This document shows, one piece after another, positions 24,890-36,002 of a stretch of DNA of 37,763 nt. The translations under genes and the position numbers were made by a program. This DNA comes from a virus. The number at the start of each line of letters is the position of its first letter. Position 1 is the first letter of the stretch. Under the pieces are notes generated by a model. It searched no databases, was not told the DNA's origin, and worked only from the letters and a program-made list of their open reading frames with translations. The DNA lies in the IMG/VR virus record IMGVR_UViG_3300032331_002003, positions 1 to 37,763 of that record; one strand, given 5' to 3'.

Positions 24890-27103
24890 GTGAGTGAAAG
24901 CCTACAACAAGATGAAGTGATACACAACGCTGCATCTCACAAGATGTCGTTAGCCTTTGCCAATAACGGTTTTAAGGACACCAGTCTTACGTCTAAAGAT
25001 TACACGTTGCAGGATCTCAGTGACCGCTTAAAGCGCGTCCGTGTCGGGCCAAAGGATGGCTCATACATGATACGGGGCGGTGATCTCACGATCTGCAAGC
25101 GAGCCGACGAGAATCTCAGATCAGCGGAACTGATTATCCTCGACGGTGATTCGTCGATCGATCCAGAGACAGGCGAGATCACACCCGGTGCCCCTTATTT
25201 CTATGACGTCCACGAAGCGCTTAAAGACATGGGCATCGCTCACATCATGCACACGTCACACAGCAACCGTGGCTCTGATGGCGTGGTGAGCTTCTGGAAA
25301 TTCCGTGTAGTCATCCCGTGCCAGATGCAGTCGCAAGAGGATCTGACCGCTGCTGTCGATTACCTGATCGCGGAGCTGCACAAGCGTAAGATATGGATGA
25401 ACTGCGTCACCGAAAACTATCGCTGGTCTCAGCCGTGGTTCCTCCCTCGCGTCAGCAAAGAGGAAGAGCGCGAGCGTTTCGTGCATCGCGATTACCTCGA
25501 CGGGCAGATCTTTAACATTGCGACAGCCCTAAAGTGGCAGCGCGAACAGACCAGTTTAGACGTACACATAGACCTGTTGAAGATCGCCCTGCCGCACAAC
25601 CAGTCGAGCAGCACGATCACCGACTTCAACGAGCAGCACGGTCTCGAATGGATGCGAGCGCAGCTGGCATCGATGGGTTACAAGTTTAGCCATTACGACA
25701 AGCGGCATGACGCATACCGATACGTGTCACCAACGAGCAGCACAGGCACAGCAGGAGTACTCCTGTTCCGTGGATCGCGTGGCGACTGGATCACCTATTC
25801 CCATCACGGGGCACACGATCCGTTGTCAGAGAAAGTGATGGACCCATTCGCGATCTACTCACTCGTAAATTTTTCTGGGGATAACTCTTCCGCACTCCGG
25901 TCGCTGCAACCCAGAGAAAAGAGCATCACGGAACAGCTATCGGAGATGCGGGATCACAGCGCGAGCATCGCTGCACCGCAACAAGATAATGCTGCACCGC
26001 AAAACAAAAAGCGCATCGAAATCCTGCGCATGGACCAGCTTACCGACGAGCCAGTGCAATGGCTGATAGAAGACCTGATCCCGGCAAAGGCATTCGCAGC
26101 GATCTACGGTAAACCCGGCAGCTTCAAGTCATTCGTGGCAATATATCTGAGCCAGATGATAGCGGCAGGCAAACCAGCATTCGAGAAGCCGACTACTCAA
26201 GGGACGTGCCTATACATCGCAGGGGAAGGCCAAGCAGGGCTAAAGAAGCGCTCGGACGCATCGCGTATAGCCCACGAGATTGAGCCCTCTGTGCCTCTCT
26301 ATTTCATTAAGCGAAGCCTGAACCTCAGCTCGACGCTGGAAGACATGCAGGAGCTCATCAAGGAGATCAGGGAACTCGGTATCGCGCCATCCCTCATAGT
26401 CATAGACACGCTCGCTCGTAACTTCGTCGGGGACGAGAACAGCTCATCAGACATGAGCCAATTCATATCGGTCATCGGCGAGCTCATAGCCCAGCTCAGT
26501 TGCTCAGTCTTAGTGGTCCACCATGCCGGTAAGGATGAGTCAAAGGGGATGCGTGGCTCGTCAGCTTTGCTCGGTGCAGTGGACGCGGAACTCGAATGCA
26601 CACGCACATCAGATGAGGAGGACAAGGACCACCTGACCGGAAAACTGACCACAACAAAGCAGAAGGAATCGGAGGACGGGGTCGAGTTTCACTTCAAGAT
26701 GCAGCGGATTCTGACAGACAAACTGGACCCGAATATCGTCTCACTAGGGCTTAGACCCTGTGAGAAACAGGAGCAGAAAAAGCGTCAGAAAAAGAAGCTC
26801 ACAGAGGCCGAGATTTTCGTGCTCGATGCTCTCGACAAAGCCATCACGGACTTTGGAAAACGGTATGGTGTACCCGGAATACCGTCAGAAAAACTGTGTG
26901 TCAGACGCGCAGATCTACTATCCTCATTCCGACATTTGTGTGCTGCGGACGACAAATTCAGCGACAGAACGTACCAAAGAGCCGTCAAAGACCTCAGCAT
27001 CGCAAAAATCATAGGCGTCATGGGCGACATTTTATGGAAAAACGATATAAATCAACGAGTTACAGCGACAAGCGACACGGCGACATTGGGCGACACGGAA
27101 TAA
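24890..27103 (+). CDS. Primase-helicase fusion (AEP-like primase plus RepA/AAA_25 helicase)
   Basis: The 737-residue protein starts at GTG 24890 behind CGGAGA. The N-terminal part (about 1-240) shows features of archaeo-eukaryotic-type primases: LIILDGD (Asp85, Asp87), MHTSHSNR near 120-127 and KFRVVIP near 137-143. The C-terminal part (about 380-610) is a RecA-type helicase of the RepA/AAA_25 group: Walker A YGKPGSFKS (406-414), Walker B LIVIDT (Asp506) and VVHHAGKD (542-549). Such fusions start and unwind at replication origins. The 3' end of the gene carries GCGACA hexamers that continue into the intergenic region. Confidence 0.85.
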   Translation: MSESLQQDEVIHNAASHKMSLAFANNGFKDTSLTSKDYTLQDLSDRLKRVRVGPKDGSYMIRGGDLTICKRADENLRSAELIILDGDSSIDPETGEITPGAPYFYDVHEALKDMGIAHIMHTSHSNRGSDGVVSFWKFRVVIPCQMQSQEDLTAAVDYLIAELHKRKIWMNCVTENYRWSQPWFLPRVSKEEERERFVHRDYLDGQIFNIATALKWQREQTSLDVHIDLLKIALPHNQSSSTITDFNEQHGLEWMRAQLASMGYKFSHYDKRHDAYRYVSPTSSTGTAGVLLFRGSRGDWITYSHHGAHDPLSEKVMDPFAIYSLVNFSGDNSSALRSLQPREKSITEQLSEMRDHSASIAAPQQDNAAPQNKKRIEILRMDQLTDEPVQWLIEDLIPAKAFAAIYGKPGSFKSFVAIYLSQMIAAGKPAFEKPTTQGTCLYIAGEGQAGLKKRSDASRIAHEIEPSVPLYFIKRSLNLSSTLEDMQELIKEIRELGIAPSLIVIDTLARNFVGDENSSSDMSQFISVIGELIAQLSCSVLVVHHAGKDESKGMRGSSALLGAVDAELECTRTSDEEDKDHLTGKLTTTKQKESEDGVEFHFKMQRILTDKLDPNIVSLGLRPCEKQEQKKRQKKKLTEAEIFVLDALDKAITDFGKRYGVPGIPSEKLCVRRADLLSSFRHLCAADDKFSDRTYQRAVKDLSIAKIIGVMGDILWKNDINQRVTATSDTATLGDTE

Positions 27104-27204
27104 TTTGTCGCTTCTGGACAGGACGTGAGGCGACATGTCGTTTGGGGTTACCCCCTTTAGGGGGTACCCAACAATGTCGCTTCGCTGTCGCCGGTTTCTG
27201 TCGG
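26961..27204. repeat. Iteron-like cluster of GCGACA/TGTCGC hexamers, candidate origin
   Basis: GCGACA starts at 26961, 27024, 27065, 27072, 27080, 27090 and 27130; the reverse TGTCGC starts at 27106, 27175 and 27186. CGACATGTCG (27131-27140) is a perfect palindrome, and TGTCGG at 27199 is a near match. The orientation flips around the hairpin at 27145-27169. The density over the last 140 bases is far above what six bases would give by chance. Position right behind a primase-helicase resembles iteron origins of RepA-type plasmids; function is inference. Confidence 0.6.
27145..27169. other. Hairpin inside the hexamer cluster
   Basis: CCCCC (27151-27155) pairs with GGGGG (27160-27164) across TTTA. 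The arms extend outward as GGG and TA on the left with TA and CCC on the right, with one bulged T. It lies between the plus- and minus-oriented hexamers. No T run follows, so a terminator role is unlikely; a structured single-strand origin or protein-binding site is more plausible. Confidence 0.6.
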
Positions 27205-27258
27205 GGTGAGTTTTAGGGTTAGACTGAGTTGTGAGTTTTGGCTGAAGGGAGATGAGCC

Positions 27259-27561
27259 GTGAGTGAGAGCGATGAGAATGACGGGGACTCTGGTGAGCGT
27301 CCCGTGATCCAGTTGTACCAGCTCGTGATGCAGGAGCAGGGTGACGCGGACAGGGTCAAGAAAGGGTGCTGCGAGCGGTGTCTCTTTTGGGTGGGGTTCA
27401 ATGAGAATGAGGAAAACGAGCAGGAGGGAGAGTGTCACCGGTTGCCGCCACAGGTTCAGGCGACAGGGTCAACCAAGGATCCCTTCATCAGTTGCTCGTG
27501 GCCGATCACCGGTGCCTCGGACTGGTGCGGCGAGTTTGATGAAGCTGTGAGGATGAACTGA
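27259..27561 (+). CDS. Cys-rich small protein (probable metal-binding)
   Basis: The 100-residue protein starts at GTG 27259 with AAGGGAG upstream. Cysteines at 37, 38, 41, 59, 79 and 90 follow the pattern CCxRC, GECHRLPP, SC and DWCGEF, which is that of a known group of small bacterial and phage proteins with four conserved cysteines. The spacing suits zinc or an iron-sulfur centre. The N-terminal 15 residues are acidic. Function unknown. Another protein with a different six-cysteine array is encoded at 37101-37562. Confidence 0.7.
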   Translation: MSESDENDGDSGERPVIQLYQLVMQEQGDADRVKKGCCERCLFWVGFNENEENEQEGECHRLPPQVQATGSTKDPFISCSWPITGASDWCGEFDEAVRMN

Positions 27562-28118
27562 TGGCGCGCTCGGAAATCAAAACACCGAATGACCTCATGG
27601 TCTGGGAGATGCGGCAGAGGCAGGTGGACGCGGCGCTCGTTCCGCTCGACCGGGTTGCGAGAGAGTTCGAGGGCAAGTGGGGGTACCGCCGTCTTCAGTC
27701 GCTCGCCTCGCCAGAGTTAGCCGTGAAGTTCGAGGGAGCGCGTCAGAAGCTCGATGATGCGATCAGGGCACAGGACACTGACGAGGTGGCTAAACGTGCC
27801 GCGATCATGATCAGGGGGTGGCAGGCACTGGAGAAGGCAGCAGCCGACGCAGGACACACACCTCTCGGTCATGGGCTGTGGCAGGCCAAGAGCGGCGGGA
27901 AGACGTTCACGGTGGCACTGCTCAGGGAAGACGTTGATGCGCCAGCCTTGAGTGCCTCCGAGCCAGAGACGGTTGTGTGCGTCGAGGAGCTGCTGGTCTG
28001 CTGGCAGAATCGCTACGAGGGCGTGGGGAAGGTGAAGGCAGCCTTTCCGGGCGCAACCGTATCGGATGAGCGGCCTCGGACACGGTTGCCGCGTGGTGGG
28101 GATGAGATACCGTTTTAA
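27561..28118 (+). CDS. Unknown protein
   Basis: The 185-residue protein begins at ATG 27561, one base into the preceding stop. The first two thirds are helical and charged (EMRQRQVDAALVPLDRVARE; LDDAIRAQDTDEVAKRAAIM), then comes a segment LCWQNRYEGVGKVKAAFPGA-like beta region. It ends DEIPF, an acidic-aromatic ending close to the SSB-type tail (DDIPF), which may be a site for replication-protein contact; this is a guess. I do not recognise the family. Confidence 0.65.
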   Translation: MARSEIKTPNDLMVWEMRQRQVDAALVPLDRVAREFEGKWGYRRLQSLASPELAVKFEGARQKLDDAIRAQDTDEVAKRAAIMIRGWQALEKAAADAGHTPLGHGLWQAKSGGKTFTVALLREDVDAPALSASEPETVVCVEELLVCWQNRYEGVGKVKAAFPGATVSDERPRTRLPRGGDEIPF

Positions 28119-30428: not shown

Positions 30429-30459
30429 TTTTGGGAACGCGTTGAAATTGCGGGGGAAA

Positions 30460-30933
30460 ATGGCGAAAGAAGCTAAAAAGAACGGCAGGCCAACCATGAA
30501 AAATCAGGCTTTGCTTGAAGAATTTTGCCGCAGAATCGCTGCTGGGCGTTCTGTTGCAAATGTTTGCTCCGAAGATGACATGCCTGCGGATAAGACAATC
30601 TGGCAATGGTTGTCGCAAGACAAGAGCTTTGCAGATGACTATGCGCGCGCAATTCAGGCGCGAGCCATGCACCATGCTGACGGGATTCTCGATCTCGAAC
30701 AAAAGTTGCTGAGCGGGGAAATTCCGCCAGACGTTGCGCGGGTTGCGCTCGATACGAGGAAATGGGTTGCCTCACGCCTGCTGCCAAAAACTTATGGCGA
30801 CCGGCAAAGCGTTGACGTTTCCGTGACTCACACTCATCAACTGCACTTGGACGCGCTGAAACGGCTTAACGACACGGCCAAAGCGTTACCGGCAAGCGAT
30901 ATAATAGACGGGGAAATTGTTAGCGTTTCCTAA
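30460..30933 (+). CDS. Small terminase subunit (Sf6-type)
   Basis: From ATG 30460, behind GCGGGGG, the protein has 157 residues; an upstream in-frame TTG is less likely. The N-terminal HTH region (EFCRRIAAGRSVANVCSEDD then MPADKTIWQWLSQD, residues 21-54) and the helical DDYARAIQARAMHHADGILD match Sf6/P22-like small terminases, which bind the packaging site. The C-terminus is variable. The large subunit lies 3.7 kb away, an unusual gap filled with accessory genes. Confidence 0.8.
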   Translation: MAKEAKKNGRPTMKNQALLEEFCRRIAAGRSVANVCSEDDMPADKTIWQWLSQDKSFADDYARAIQARAMHHADGILDLEQKLLSGEIPPDVARVALDTRKWVASRLLPKTYGDRQSVDVSVTHTHQLHLDALKRLNDTAKALPASDIIDGEIVSVS

Positions 30934-31197: not shown

Positions 31198-31749
31198 ATG
31201 CTTATAGGTTATGCTCGTACTTCCACCAATGACCAGCACGCAGGTCTCGACGCGCAACGGCGTGACTTATCCGCGTCAGGGTGCGAGCGCATCTTTGACG
31301 AGCAGGTGTCATCTGTAGCGCGTCGTGACAGGCTTGATGAGGCCATCCAGTACTTGCGCGATGGCGATGTTCTTGTCGTGACCAAGTTGGACCGGCTTGC
31401 TCGCAGTGTCGCGGATCTAGTGACGATTGTTGCTGAGATTGAAAAGCGCGGCGCGAGCCTGCGTATCCTCGCCATGAATCTTGATACACACACACCGACA
31501 GGCAAGCTGATGCTGAATGTGATTGGCTCTGTGGCGCAGTTTGAGCGTGAGATCATGCTTGAGCGTCAGCGTGAGGGTATCCAGAAGGCGAAGCGAGACG
31601 GGAAATACAGGGGCAGGAAGCCGACTGCGGCTGTGCGGAAAGACGAGATCGTGACGCTATTGGCTGGCGGGGTTAAGCCCTTGGAGATCGCGTCACAGTT
31701 GCAGATCTCGAAGAGCAGCGTTTACCGTTTGATAGGGGAGATGGGATGA
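31198..31749 (+). CDS. Small serine recombinase (resolvase/invertase family)
   Basis: The 183-residue protein has catalytic Ser9 in GYARTSTNDQ, KLDRLARSVADL at 63-74 (Arg66 and Arg69), and FEREIMLERQREGI at the start of the linking E helix. A C-terminal HTH (about 145-180: VTLLAGGVKPLEIASQLQIS, SVYRLIG) follows. Length and layout are those of Tn3-type resolvases and DNA invertases, not of large integrases. It could resolve genome dimers or invert a segment; no inverted-repeat-flanked segment was noticed. GGAGATAAGG precedes the start. Confidence 0.9.
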   Translation: MLIGYARTSTNDQHAGLDAQRRDLSASGCERIFDEQVSSVARRDRLDEAIQYLRDGDVLVVTKLDRLARSVADLVTIVAEIEKRGASLRILAMNLDTHTPTGKLMLNVIGSVAQFEREIMLERQREGIQKAKRDGKYRGRKPTAAVRKDEIVTLLAGGVKPLEIASQLQISKSSVYRLIGEMG

Positions 31750-32501
31750 TTTCTGATGGCGATAAGATTGCTGTTTGGTTTTCCTGTGGCGCTGCCAGTG
31801 CTGTCGCTGCCAAATTAACGCTAGAGAAGTACGGAGATCGGTGTAGCGTATCTGTTCTGAATAGCCCGGTTGCCGAGGAAGATGAGGATAATCGGCGCTT
31901 TCTTTCTGATGTGGAGAAATGGTTGGGCGTTGAGATTGGCATCGTCAGGGCAAAGAAATATCCGTCATGTTCTGCTGTTGAGGTTTGGAATGACCGGAAA
32001 TTTATGAGCGGTAATGCTGGTGCTCCGTGTACCTTGGAGCTGAAGAAGAAGGCGCGTCAGGAATGGGAGAGGCAGAATCAAGTTGACTGGCACGTTCTTG
32101 GTTTTACCTTTGACGAGATCAGGCGGCATGAGAGGTTTGTTTTAACTGAGAGGGATAATGTTATTCCTGTGCTTATAGATGAGCGCGTAACGAAGGACAT
32201 GTGCTACGACTATTTGCGTAAGGTAGGGATTGAGTTGCCAAGGATTTATAGTCTTGGGTATCCGAATGCGAATTGCATTGGCTGTGTTAAAGCGACATCC
32301 GCAACGTATTGGAGCCATGTTAAGTCTGTGCATCCAGATGTGTTTAGAGATCGTGCCGAGCAATCGCGTCGCATTGGAGCGAAGCTAGTGCGGCACAAGG
32401 GTAAGCGGATGTTCTTGGATGAGCTGCCAGATGGGGCTTTAGGCAGACCGATGAAGAACATGGATTTTGAGTGCGGGTTGTTCTGCGAGGAAAAGATCTA
32501 G
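31746..32501 (+). CDS. PAPS-reductase-like (PP-loop) protein
   Basis: The 251-residue protein begins with an adenine-nucleotide alpha-hydrolase fold: AVWFSCGAASAVAAKL (residues 9-24), a PP-loop variant. Cysteines cluster as APC95, CIGC (177-180) and CGLFC (243-247), enough for an iron-sulfur or zinc site. Related phage and defence proteins (DndC-like, PAPS reductase-like) transfer sulfur or modify nucleic acid. Whether this one acts on sulfate, tRNA or DNA is not visible. Its start overlaps the recombinase stop (ATGA), so it belongs to the same transcript. Confidence 0.78.
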   Translation: MISDGDKIAVWFSCGAASAVAAKLTLEKYGDRCSVSVLNSPVAEEDEDNRRFLSDVEKWLGVEIGIVRAKKYPSCSAVEVWNDRKFMSGNAGAPCTLELKKKARQEWERQNQVDWHVLGFTFDEIRRHERFVLTERDNVIPVLIDERVTKDMCYDYLRKVGIELPRIYSLGYPNANCIGCVKATSATYWSHVKSVHPDVFRDRAEQSRRIGAKLVRHKGKRMFLDELPDGALGRPMKNMDFECGLFCEEKI

Positions 32502-34409: not shown

Positions 34410-34602
34410 ACAACTATTGGAGATGCTCGTTCCGTCTTACTTCAAGTTGATCGATCAACTGAGAAAGAGAGAAGAGATCGCGACGATGATGGAGTCAGCC
34501 GGTGAGAGCGATGCTTTCAACATGGCTATCGGTTATACTTACGCGGCTTTCGATCATCTGATGATGTACGCTGAAGAGATAGTGAGTAGGTCTGAGAAAT
34601 GA
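34393..34602 (+). CDS. Small helical protein before the large terminase
   Basis: The 69-residue protein starts at GTG 34393, with GGGGAG nine bases before, inside the end of the previous gene. It is helical (EAEQLLEMLVPSYFKLIDQL; YAAFDHLMMYAEEIVSR). Its end overlaps the terminase start by 4 bases (ATGA). No family recognised. Confidence 0.6.
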   Translation: MKSEAEQLLEMLVPSYFKLIDQLRKREEIATMMESAGESDAFNMAIGYTYAAFDHLMMYAEEIVSRSEK

Positions 34603-36002
34603 GCAAGGCTTCTGCTGACGCTAAAGAGTTCGACGATTTCATTCGGCTGTATCGCAATGATCCGGTCAAGTTTGTCCGCGTCGTGCTGCAAGAGAACCCG
34701 TTAAAGTGGCAAGAGGAACTGTTGCGGAAGATCGCGGCAGGAAAGCGGCGCATCTCTGTGCGCGCGGGTCACGGTGTTGGTAAAAGTACTGTGTGCTCGT
34801 GGGCCATTGTCTGGGTCATGTGTACGCGGTTCCCACAGAAATGCGTAATGACCGCGCCTACAGCGGGGCAGTTGTTCGATGCGTTGTTCTCTGAACTGAA
34901 AGCGCAAGTGAACAAGCTGCCGCCTGTATTGCGCGACTCATTCGATGTGCTGAGTGACCGGATTAGCTTGAAGGCAGCGCCAGAGTCGAGCTTTGCCTCA
35001 GCGCGTACCTCGTCCTCAGAGCGACCAGAAGCCCTCGCCGGTATTCACTCAGAGAATGTGTTGCTGATTGTGGATGAGGCATCCGCTGTGCCAGAGCCCG
35101 TGTTCGAGGCAGCGGCAGGGTCTATGTCTGGTCACAGCGCTTGCACAATTCTCATTGGTAACCCGACGCGTAATAGCGGCTTGTTTTACCGGACGCACCA
35201 TGAGCTGTCATCTGACTGGGACACGATGCACGTCTCGTGTCTCGATATTCCATTGGTGTCGAAGGACTTCGTTGAGCAAATCAAGGCAACCTATGGCGAG
35301 GGCAGCAATGCGTTTCGTATTCGCGTACTGGGAGAATTTGCTGTTGCTGATAATGATACTCTTATTGCGGCAGAGCTAGTTGATACGGCGATGGGGCGGG
35401 ATGTGCCGGTCGATGTGTCAGACGGGATGATCTACGGGTTAGACGTTGCGCGGTTTGGCACCGACAGATCTGCTCTTTGCAAGCGGAAAGGCAATGTCGT
35501 GATGGAGGTCAAGTCATGGGGTGGGCTTGATCTGATGCAGTTGGTCGGTGCTGTGGTGAATGAGGCGCGCACAGATAATCCGGTTGAGATCTGCGTGGAC
35601 ACCATTGGTCTTGGTTCCGGTGTAGCCGATAGGTTACGGGAGATGGGGTACAATGTCAGGGATGTGAACGTCGCTGAATCTTCAGCCATGAACCCTAATG
35701 CTAATAAGCTCAGGGATGAACTGTGGCTTGCGGTGAAGGATTGGCTCGCTACTCGAACTGTGCGTATCCCGAATGACCAGACGTTGCGCCATGAGTTAGT
35801 CGCGCCCCGGTATAACTTTTCCTCGTCCGGTAAGATTGTGGTAGAGTCCAAGGACGCGATGAAGAAACGCGGGATGCGGTCGCCTGACTTGGCTGACGCG
35901 GTTTGCTTGACTTTCGCCGGTAATGCGGCGCTAGTCGGTGGACGTGGCACACCTTGGGTAAGGGGAAAACCGCTCAAGAGGAAGATTTCCGGTATCGTAT
36001 GA
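34599..36002 (+). CDS. Large terminase subunit
   Basis: The 467-residue protein has both motor and nuclease parts. Walker A is RAGHGVGKST (55-64) and Walker B LLIVDEAS (155-162, Asp159 and Glu160), followed by the coupling motif IGNPTRNSG (186-194). The RNase H-like nuclease carries Asp282 (GLDVAR), Asp334 (CVDTIGLG) and Asp430/Asp433 (RSPDLADA). It packages DNA into the procapsid and cuts it. The size and motifs fit headful-type terminases of P22-like or related podoviruses. Confidence 0.93.
   Translation: MSKASADAKEFDDFIRLYRNDPVKFVRVVLQENPLKWQEELLRKIAAGKRRISVRAGHGVGKSTVCSWAIVWVMCTRFPQKCVMTAPTAGQLFDALFSELKAQVNKLPPVLRDSFDVLSDRISLKAAPESSFASARTSSSERPEALAGIHSENVLLIVDEASAVPEPVFEAAAGSMSGHSACTILIGNPTRNSGLFYRTHHELSSDWDTMHVSCLDIPLVSKDFVEQIKATYGEGSNAFRIRVLGEFAVADNDTLIAAELVDTAMGRDVPVDVSDGMIYGLDVARFGTDRSALCKRKGNVVMEVKSWGGLDLMQLVGAVVNEARTDNPVEICVDTIGLGSGVADRLREMGYNVRDVNVAESSAMNPNANKLRDELWLAVKDWLATRTVRIPNDQTLRHELVAPRYNFSSSGKIVVESKDAMKKRGMRSPDLADAVCLTFAGNAALVGGRGTPWVRGKPLKRKISGIV

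Follow-up and report, generated by a model that had tools for sequence, protein, structure and literature searches.

The replicative helicase locus

The window, by which we mean the whole stretch of DNA analysed, is the 37,763-base virus record IMGVR_UViG_3300032331_002003, in which genes for a portal, a scaffold, a major head protein, a terminase, an exonuclease, and a Holliday-junction resolvase were recognised. AAA_25 is the sole Pfam match of its 737-residue replicative helicase (Table 1), and a profile of the motor and C-terminus retrieves a single solved relative, the hexameric helicase RSF1010 RepA (1g8y, E 8e-17), which also ranks first for this protein in Foldseek; the motor is homologous to that of RSF1010 RepA, and the protein belongs to the RSF1010 RepA-type (AAA_25) helicases. 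Its N-terminal half is probably primase-like: the primase signal there is weak (phrog_9765, E 3e-4), a clear N-terminal Prim-Pol domain is found in two relatives (L044 and Rhizobium phage 16-3), and a domain search of the window helicase gave no match to a Toprim primase domain. At the opposite end, the AlphaFold model predicts a helix, a strand, two helices, and a two-stranded wing (H-E-H-H-E-E), mostly at pLDDT 80-95 and at pLDDT 81 when this part is modelled separately; the best PDB matches of this candidate winged helix are CRP/GlxR and ORC winged helices, with probabilities up to 1.00 and E values of only 0.02-0.2. Farther along the window, at 31198-32501, lie a gene resembling a DNA invertase/serine recombinase and, behind it, one resembling a phosphoadenosine phosphosulfate reductase; here the GC skew of the window is at its strongest (+0.32 to +0.34).

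Table 1. Features at and around the end of the helicase gene, in coordinates of the window.
Feature	Position	Strand	Basis or remark
RepA-type (AAA_25) replicative helicase gene	24890-27103	+	737 aa; AAA_25 E 7e-35
AAA_25 / RecA-like motor domain, residues 385-550	26042-26539	+	Pfam match
C-terminal winged helix, about residues 639-717, proposed repeat reader	26804-27040	+	AlphaFold model
GCGACA copy, intragenic	26961-26966	+	CGACA lost in L006
GCGACA copy, intragenic	27024-27029	+	Kept in 10 of 14 close relatives; GCGACG in L009-L012
Four GCGACA copies (27065, 27072, 27080, 27090) in the last codons	27065-27095	+	Exact matches
Proposed origin: repeat array and hairpin	27065-27204		Enrichment in relatives, covariation
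Reverse copy (TGTCGC) just past the stop codon	27106-27111	-	TGTCG kept in 12 of 12 aligned sequences
GCGACATGTCG: forward copy (27130) fused to 10-bp palindrome (27131-27140)	27130-27140		Invariant in 12 of 12 aligned sequences
Perfect hairpin TACCCCC-TTTA-GGGGGTA	27149-27166		7-bp stem
Two reverse copies (27175, 27186) beyond the hairpin	27175-27191	-	TGTCG at both kept in 12 of 12
Extra core site TGTCG	27199-27203	-	Core search, alignment
Next gene, 100 aa, outside the proposed origin	27259-27561	+	No family match
Terminase small subunit gene	30442-30933		Several kb from the array
Terminase large subunit match	34599-36002		Several kb from the array

Repeats and hairpin at the end of the gene

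A first-pass annotation of the sequence had pointed to ten exact copies of GCGACA or TGTCGC within 231 bases, and these are indeed found at 26961-27191, seven in the forward and three in the reverse orientation (Table 1); by their coordinates, five forward and all three reverse copies fall in the last 140 bases, again as annotated. Most of the copies had been placed outside the gene, which is incorrect: six of the ten are intragenic because the helicase gene ends at 27103. The intragenic hexamers occupy two different codon phases (by arithmetic from the coordinates), which argues for a constraint at the level of DNA rather than protein. CGACA is the common core of the repeats, with 14 sites within 26930-27203. 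Over the whole window GCGACA/TGTCGC occurs 43 times against 26.4 +/- 5.1 expected, and the shuffle comparison that the annotation had proposed yielded at most three GCGACA in any 231 nt across 60 dinucleotide shuffles; no 6-mer rose above five per 400 nt in 20 shuffles, and the nine copies in 400 nt at the gene end were reached by none of the 364 other 400-nt segments of the record.

The reported 10-base palindrome, CGACATGTCG, is present at 27131-27140, as is the hairpin, whose 7-bp stem is perfect. Folded as single-stranded DNA, the interval 27126-27205 scores z = -4.3, and the inverted hexamers make its outer stem. No obvious AT-rich melting element was seen at the array. GC skew, suggested as a check around 27.1 kb, stays positive to the left and right of the array and shows no more than a local step near 26.5 kb, and third-position skew per gene is without a clear switch; because its sign is the same on both sides of the array, GC skew was dropped as support for an origin.

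Conservation in close relatives

Loss of the cluster from close relatives had been named as an outcome that would speak against it, and the reverse was found: array and hairpin are kept in every one of the 13 close relatives whose sequence extends beyond the helicase stop; the contig of a fourteenth (L003) stops 1 nt after the match, and the array is seen there in the coding part. Letters do change within this group. In L006-L016 the last three coding-end positions read CCGACA rather than GCGACA and the first (27065) is not kept; the hairpin there is ATACCCC-TTTA-GGGGTAT, shifted in its letters with the stem still a perfect 7 bp.

Arrays behind RepA-type helicases in wider relatives

The wider comparison drew on two collections. 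Of 207 viral-contig sequences, a helicase ORF was present in 201, and it was closed and followed by 300 nt or more in the 182 usable ones, which were reduced to 105 representatives at 90%; the other collection was a set of bacterial and archaeal genomes with 80 loci (the best 80 of a longer match list), 78 of them usable and 76 kept as representatives; loci from three match lists, the genome set included, were the best 80 of longer lists. As array statistic we took the number of copies, both strands included and overlaps excluded, of the commonest 6-mer from -100 to +300 of the helicase stop. Among viral contigs, at least six copies were found at 68 of 105 helicase stops, as against 42 of 1012 stops of other long ORFs and 91 of 3613 other segments of the same loci; at least seven copies were found at 51 of 105 versus 17 of 1012 (Fisher p 1e-43, for representatives that are interrelated and form 21 clusters at 50% single linkage, 14 of which have an array in at least one member). 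In the genome set, drawn from the best 80 matches, the corresponding counts are 39 of 76 versus 30 of 606 for at least six copies and 34 of 76 versus 7 of 606 for at least seven. The hairpin core C3+[AT]3-8G3+ is likewise concentrated at helicase stops, both in viral contigs (31/105 versus 6/1012) and in the genome set from the best 80 matches (29/76 versus 5/606).

The place of the array is shared and its word varies by lineage (GCGACA, CGGACA, GGGACA, GTGACA, GTATCA, CGGAAGT, and others), and a fixed GCGACA was rejected as a family signature. Relatives at 40-48% protein identity carry CGGACA, GGGACA, or GTGACA in the same place, and L041, at 36%, carries GTATCA. In distant relatives the forward copies come first and the reverse copies last, with a hairpin between them whose core is CCC-TTTA-GGG or CCC-TTAA-GGG; among 33 loci, 14 have the apex TTTA, more than have any other. 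In a manual tally of these 33 loci, the majority orientation of the repeats was opposite across the hairpin in 22, the same in two, and tied in nine. The strict rule of forward copies before and reverse copies after the hairpin held in only eight of the 33, and the majority form alone is claimed here.

Other hairpins also occur: an identical one, TGTGTGTCTGAAAGACACACA, replaces the CCC-TTTA-GGG form in L187, L180, L197, and L205, between about +112 and +228 relative to the helicase stop, and a further class is made up of the GTGTGTATGTAATACACAC hairpins of L117, L076, L132, and L186. The 10-base AAGTCATTGA, on either strand, lies between or near iteron blocks in L045, L048, L052, L209, L217, L219, L252, and L058, in L048 and L052 also within displaced arrays; it is perhaps a melting or host-factor site. 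Of 188 loci, 6 have an exact copy in the 450 nt that follow the helicase (about 0.8 expected), and it was judged too rare to build on as a common spacer element. One locus with a RepA-type helicase (L235) lies on a metagenome-bin contig titled Borreliella garinii, and the bin may be misassigned.

The array was absent within +300 in 37 of 105 viral-contig representatives and in 37 of 76 from the genome set (best 80 matches), and for at least six of the former 37 an array lies 0.4-2.0 kb farther downstream. MW202711 (L020), the first of the distant relatives, lacks a GCGACA/CGACA array behind its helicase gene and has a displaced GGGACA array with a hairpin about 1.3-1.7 kb downstream. CGGAAGT arrays lie 1.2-2.0 kb downstream of the helicase in L048 and L052 and directly behind the gene in L045 and L096, whose C-terminal type is shared with the former two at 27-52% identity. 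The RepA-like protein of L020 (L020:3959-6259) has a ERATIERAVDERASEPT-like repetitive linker between its halves and terminates in ...FDDIPFD, an end that we take to resemble the acidic tip of SSB proteins; the helicases of several further relatives also terminate in acidic residues and F.

Of 1240 matching phage records, 17 of the 60 listed were examined, namely MW202711 and 16 others, and seven of these 16 named phages have an array: Rhizobium phages 16-3 and RHph_X2_25 (GTGACA) and RHph_N65 (CGGAGAT), Roseobacter phages CRP-823 (CTACAAA) and CRP-406 (GCTGGAA), Vibrio phage 1.076.O (CGGACA, six copies), and Burkholderia phage BcepGomr (AAATAA-like), the last counted as weaker because its word is AT-rich. 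No array above background was found in the other nine of the 16, Caulobacter phage GB2A and eight actinobacteriophages, the latter infecting Corynebacterium, Gordonia, Nocardia, Mycobacterium, and Tsukamurella. In KYD2, a GC-rich word reaches six copies, a count matched by 17 of 126 segments.

In the window, the two genes behind the array (27259-28118) encode the Cys-rich 100-aa protein and a WG..RL..L protein, and by eye counterparts of both apparently lie right behind the arrays of L021, L023, L024, L040, L035, and L207, which suggests a conserved replication neighbourhood.

Covariation of the repeat word with the helicase C-terminus

If the winged helix reads the repeats, word and C-terminus are expected to change together. 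This was examined in the 100 of 151 distinct tails that have an array. For pairs whose motors share 80% identity or more, the mean motif cosine is 0.02 where the C-termini are less than 40% identical and climbs to 0.83 where they are at least 90% identical; when all pairs are taken together, partial rank correlation gives 0.24 for the C-terminus given the motor and -0.04 for the motor given the C-terminus. Within motor clusters, motif similarity correlates with C-terminal identity at r 0.79, a value reached by none of 5000 restricted permutations (maximum 0.57). The word, in short, tracks the predicted C-terminal winged helix rather than the motor. L026 and L164, for example, have motors that are 100% identical, C-termini that are 52% identical, and the words CGGGACA and CAGCACA, respectively.

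Swaps can also be recognised in the DNA of pairs that differ in their word. L087/L078, L100/L115, L191/L181, and L023/L024 can be aligned in the motor, lose their alignment over the C-terminus and array, and regain it in the genes that follow. Across the 24 of 35 motif-switch pairs with enough flank, nucleotide identity averages 0.83 over the motor, falls to 0.58-0.59 over the final 200 nt of the gene (the C-terminus) and to 0.51 over the 100 nt that come next, and is back at 0.76 from +400 to +600, whereas same-motif controls (60 of 85 pairs drawn at random, 44 with enough flank) have no C-terminal dip, at an identity of 0.85. These profiles argue that some pairs have exchanged winged helix and array between conserved flanks. 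Joint exchange could reflect linkage of adjacent stretches, yet linkage alone is made less likely by the distance of the arrays from the gene in L048 and L052 and by the conservation of the genes downstream. Given the strong covariation and the swaps, the C-terminal domain may set iteron specificity. The layout of repeats and hairpin is conserved across the comparison, the words are lineage-specific, and word and C-terminus vary and are exchanged jointly.

A candidate replication origin and competing explanations

The first-pass annotation had offered two readings of the cluster, a replication origin and a binding platform for the primase-helicase, and the comparison supports both, since the array is kept and its word follows the C-terminus; origin and platform are probably the same thing. 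We consider it likely, with good confidence, that 27065-27204 is a phage replication origin whose repeats are bound by the C-terminal winged helix of the helicase itself; direct binding of the repeats by this domain, origin activity, and a role for the hairpin are what we infer from the comparative pattern. The helicase made from the upstream gene would recognise the GCGACA repeats through its own winged helix, and copies in both orientations would bring helicase subunits together to the left and right of the CCCCC-TTTA-GGGGG hairpin, the flanks of which are themselves inverted repeat copies. The helicase would then be loaded or activated at the array, with the hairpin, once single-stranded, as the likely priming or loading site. 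It may prime as ssiA/ssiB of RSF1010 do or aid melting; that it serves in priming is a tentative proposal by analogy, somewhat more doubtful than probable.

Clustered repeats behind a gene admit other explanations, of which an operator, through which the helicase or another regulator would control its own or downstream transcription while replication starts elsewhere, is the most substantial, although unlikely. Iteron initiators often autoregulate, and the arrays lie between co-directional genes, both of which would suit an operator; on the other hand, no promoter-like site was found near the array (the only one is at 26711), up to 15-16 copies plus a hairpin exceed the usual operator, and a regulator encoded elsewhere would leave unexplained why the word follows the C-terminus while motor and downstream genes are conserved. 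A reading of the hairpin as a transcription terminator or RNA element, with hexamers present only by coincidence, appears highly improbable: a GC-rich hairpin behind a gene and T-rich tails in some relatives would fit, but the terminator scan of the window did not call the hairpin at 27149, Rfam at gathering scores had no match in the window, and lineage-specific words that occur in both orientations, lie partly within the gene, and track the C-terminus would have no explanation.

Partition and packaging sites can also be clustered short repeats, and the array could be such a site, read by another phage protein; the covariation of the word with the helicase C-terminus and the position of the terminase genes, several kb off in the window, make this a slightly poorer candidate still than a terminator. 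Chance, codon bias, or a simple tandem-duplication artefact could be suspected from the four copies in the last codons, and we regard any of these as having next to no likelihood, given that shuffles never exceeded three copies, that the hexamers occupy two codon phases and both strands, extend outside the gene, and are kept in relatives, and that arrays are enriched at helicase stops in both collections, which refutes chance.

Relation to known replication systems

SaPI Rep carries an SF3-like helicase, as opposed to the RepA/AAA_25 type found here, and because its motor matches RSF1010 RepA the window helicase is not filed as a SaPI Rep. The likeness to SaPI Rep/ori lies in the iterons directly downstream of the helicase gene, found in the window, in 68 of 105 viral-contig relatives, and in 39 of 76 relatives from the best 80 genome matches; SaPIs, however, are phage satellites and the present locus belongs to a phage, in which the conserved hairpin with its CCC-TTTA-GGG apex and the many different words are distinguishing features. 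As summarised in one account, the C-terminal domain of SaPI Rep recognises iterons directly downstream of its own gene (PMC7581432, citing Ubeda 2007), and the same account describes an SCCmec helicase, Cch2, that binds direct repeats downstream of its own gene, at a putative origin, in vitro (PMC7581432). The repeats behind the helicase gene are common to Cch2 and the window, whereas Cch2 is a D5-type helicase with three 5-nt iterons and a separate primase.

In P4 alpha, according to the description in PMC4234260, one multifunctional protein binds the origin repeats by a winged helix and then performs unwinding and priming, its primase being of the bacterial (Toprim) type (PMC4234260). The origin of P4 is known as ori/crr. 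A winged helix as proposed reader of origin repeats within the replication protein is the point of likeness; Toprim in P4 contrasts with the RepA-type motor here and the Prim-Pol domain of relatives. RSF1010 oriV is described in the same source as iterons plus short hairpins, of which ssiA/ssiB are priming sites (PMC4234260). Shared with it are a homologous helicase motor and iterons plus short hairpins, with a priming role only proposed for the phage hairpin; iteron reader (RepC), helicase (RepA), and primase (RepB') are separate in RSF1010, whereas here the reader is proposed to be fused to the helicase. ORF904 of pRN1 combines primase, helicase, and winged helix and needs a stem-loop just downstream of its gene, and a layout like that of pRN1 has been proposed for Bordetella phages, as outlined in PMC4234260. 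The window resembles pRN1 in the stem-loop behind the replication gene (27149-27166 and the longer fold) and differs in its ten iterons and its motor, pRN1 having an SF3 helicase, a stem-loop of about 100 bp, and, as it is described there, no iterons.

The general kind is already known, since SaPI Rep, Cch2, P4 alpha, and pRN1 have similar arrangements. The present loci differ in having a RepA-type motor, in belonging to phages, and in their constant hairpin core, their many different words, and the swaps. In the open-access PMC literature, a scope that leaves subscription journals mostly uncovered, no description of iteron arrays behind RepA-type phage helicases was found.

Implications

There is perhaps an even chance that these loci represent a very large class of origins, as yet without a name, in phages and prophages whose replicative helicases read the origin through a winged helix of their own. 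In this class the winged helix and the array matched to it would form an exchangeable cassette around a constant CCC-(A/T)-GGG hairpin, by which near-identical replication modules would repeatedly have gained new origin specificities. To our knowledge, the origins of most phages are not known; if the arrays are origins as proposed, those of many RepA-type phages and prophages would become readable from sequence, by locating the helicase stop and then the repeats around a CCC-TTTA-GGG hairpin. Cultured carriers, such as Rhizobium phage 16-3, permit direct tests. The dozens of words paired with diverged winged helices offer a set from which rules of winged-helix recognition may be derived and, should the cassette reading hold, would amount to a library of winged-helix/word pairs supplied by nature. 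Changing selection on origin specificity is suggested by the swaps, as might arise through escape from satellites or rival phages that share the initiator, and, if the cassette reading is true, related co-infecting phages would be replicatively incompatible with or insulated from each other.
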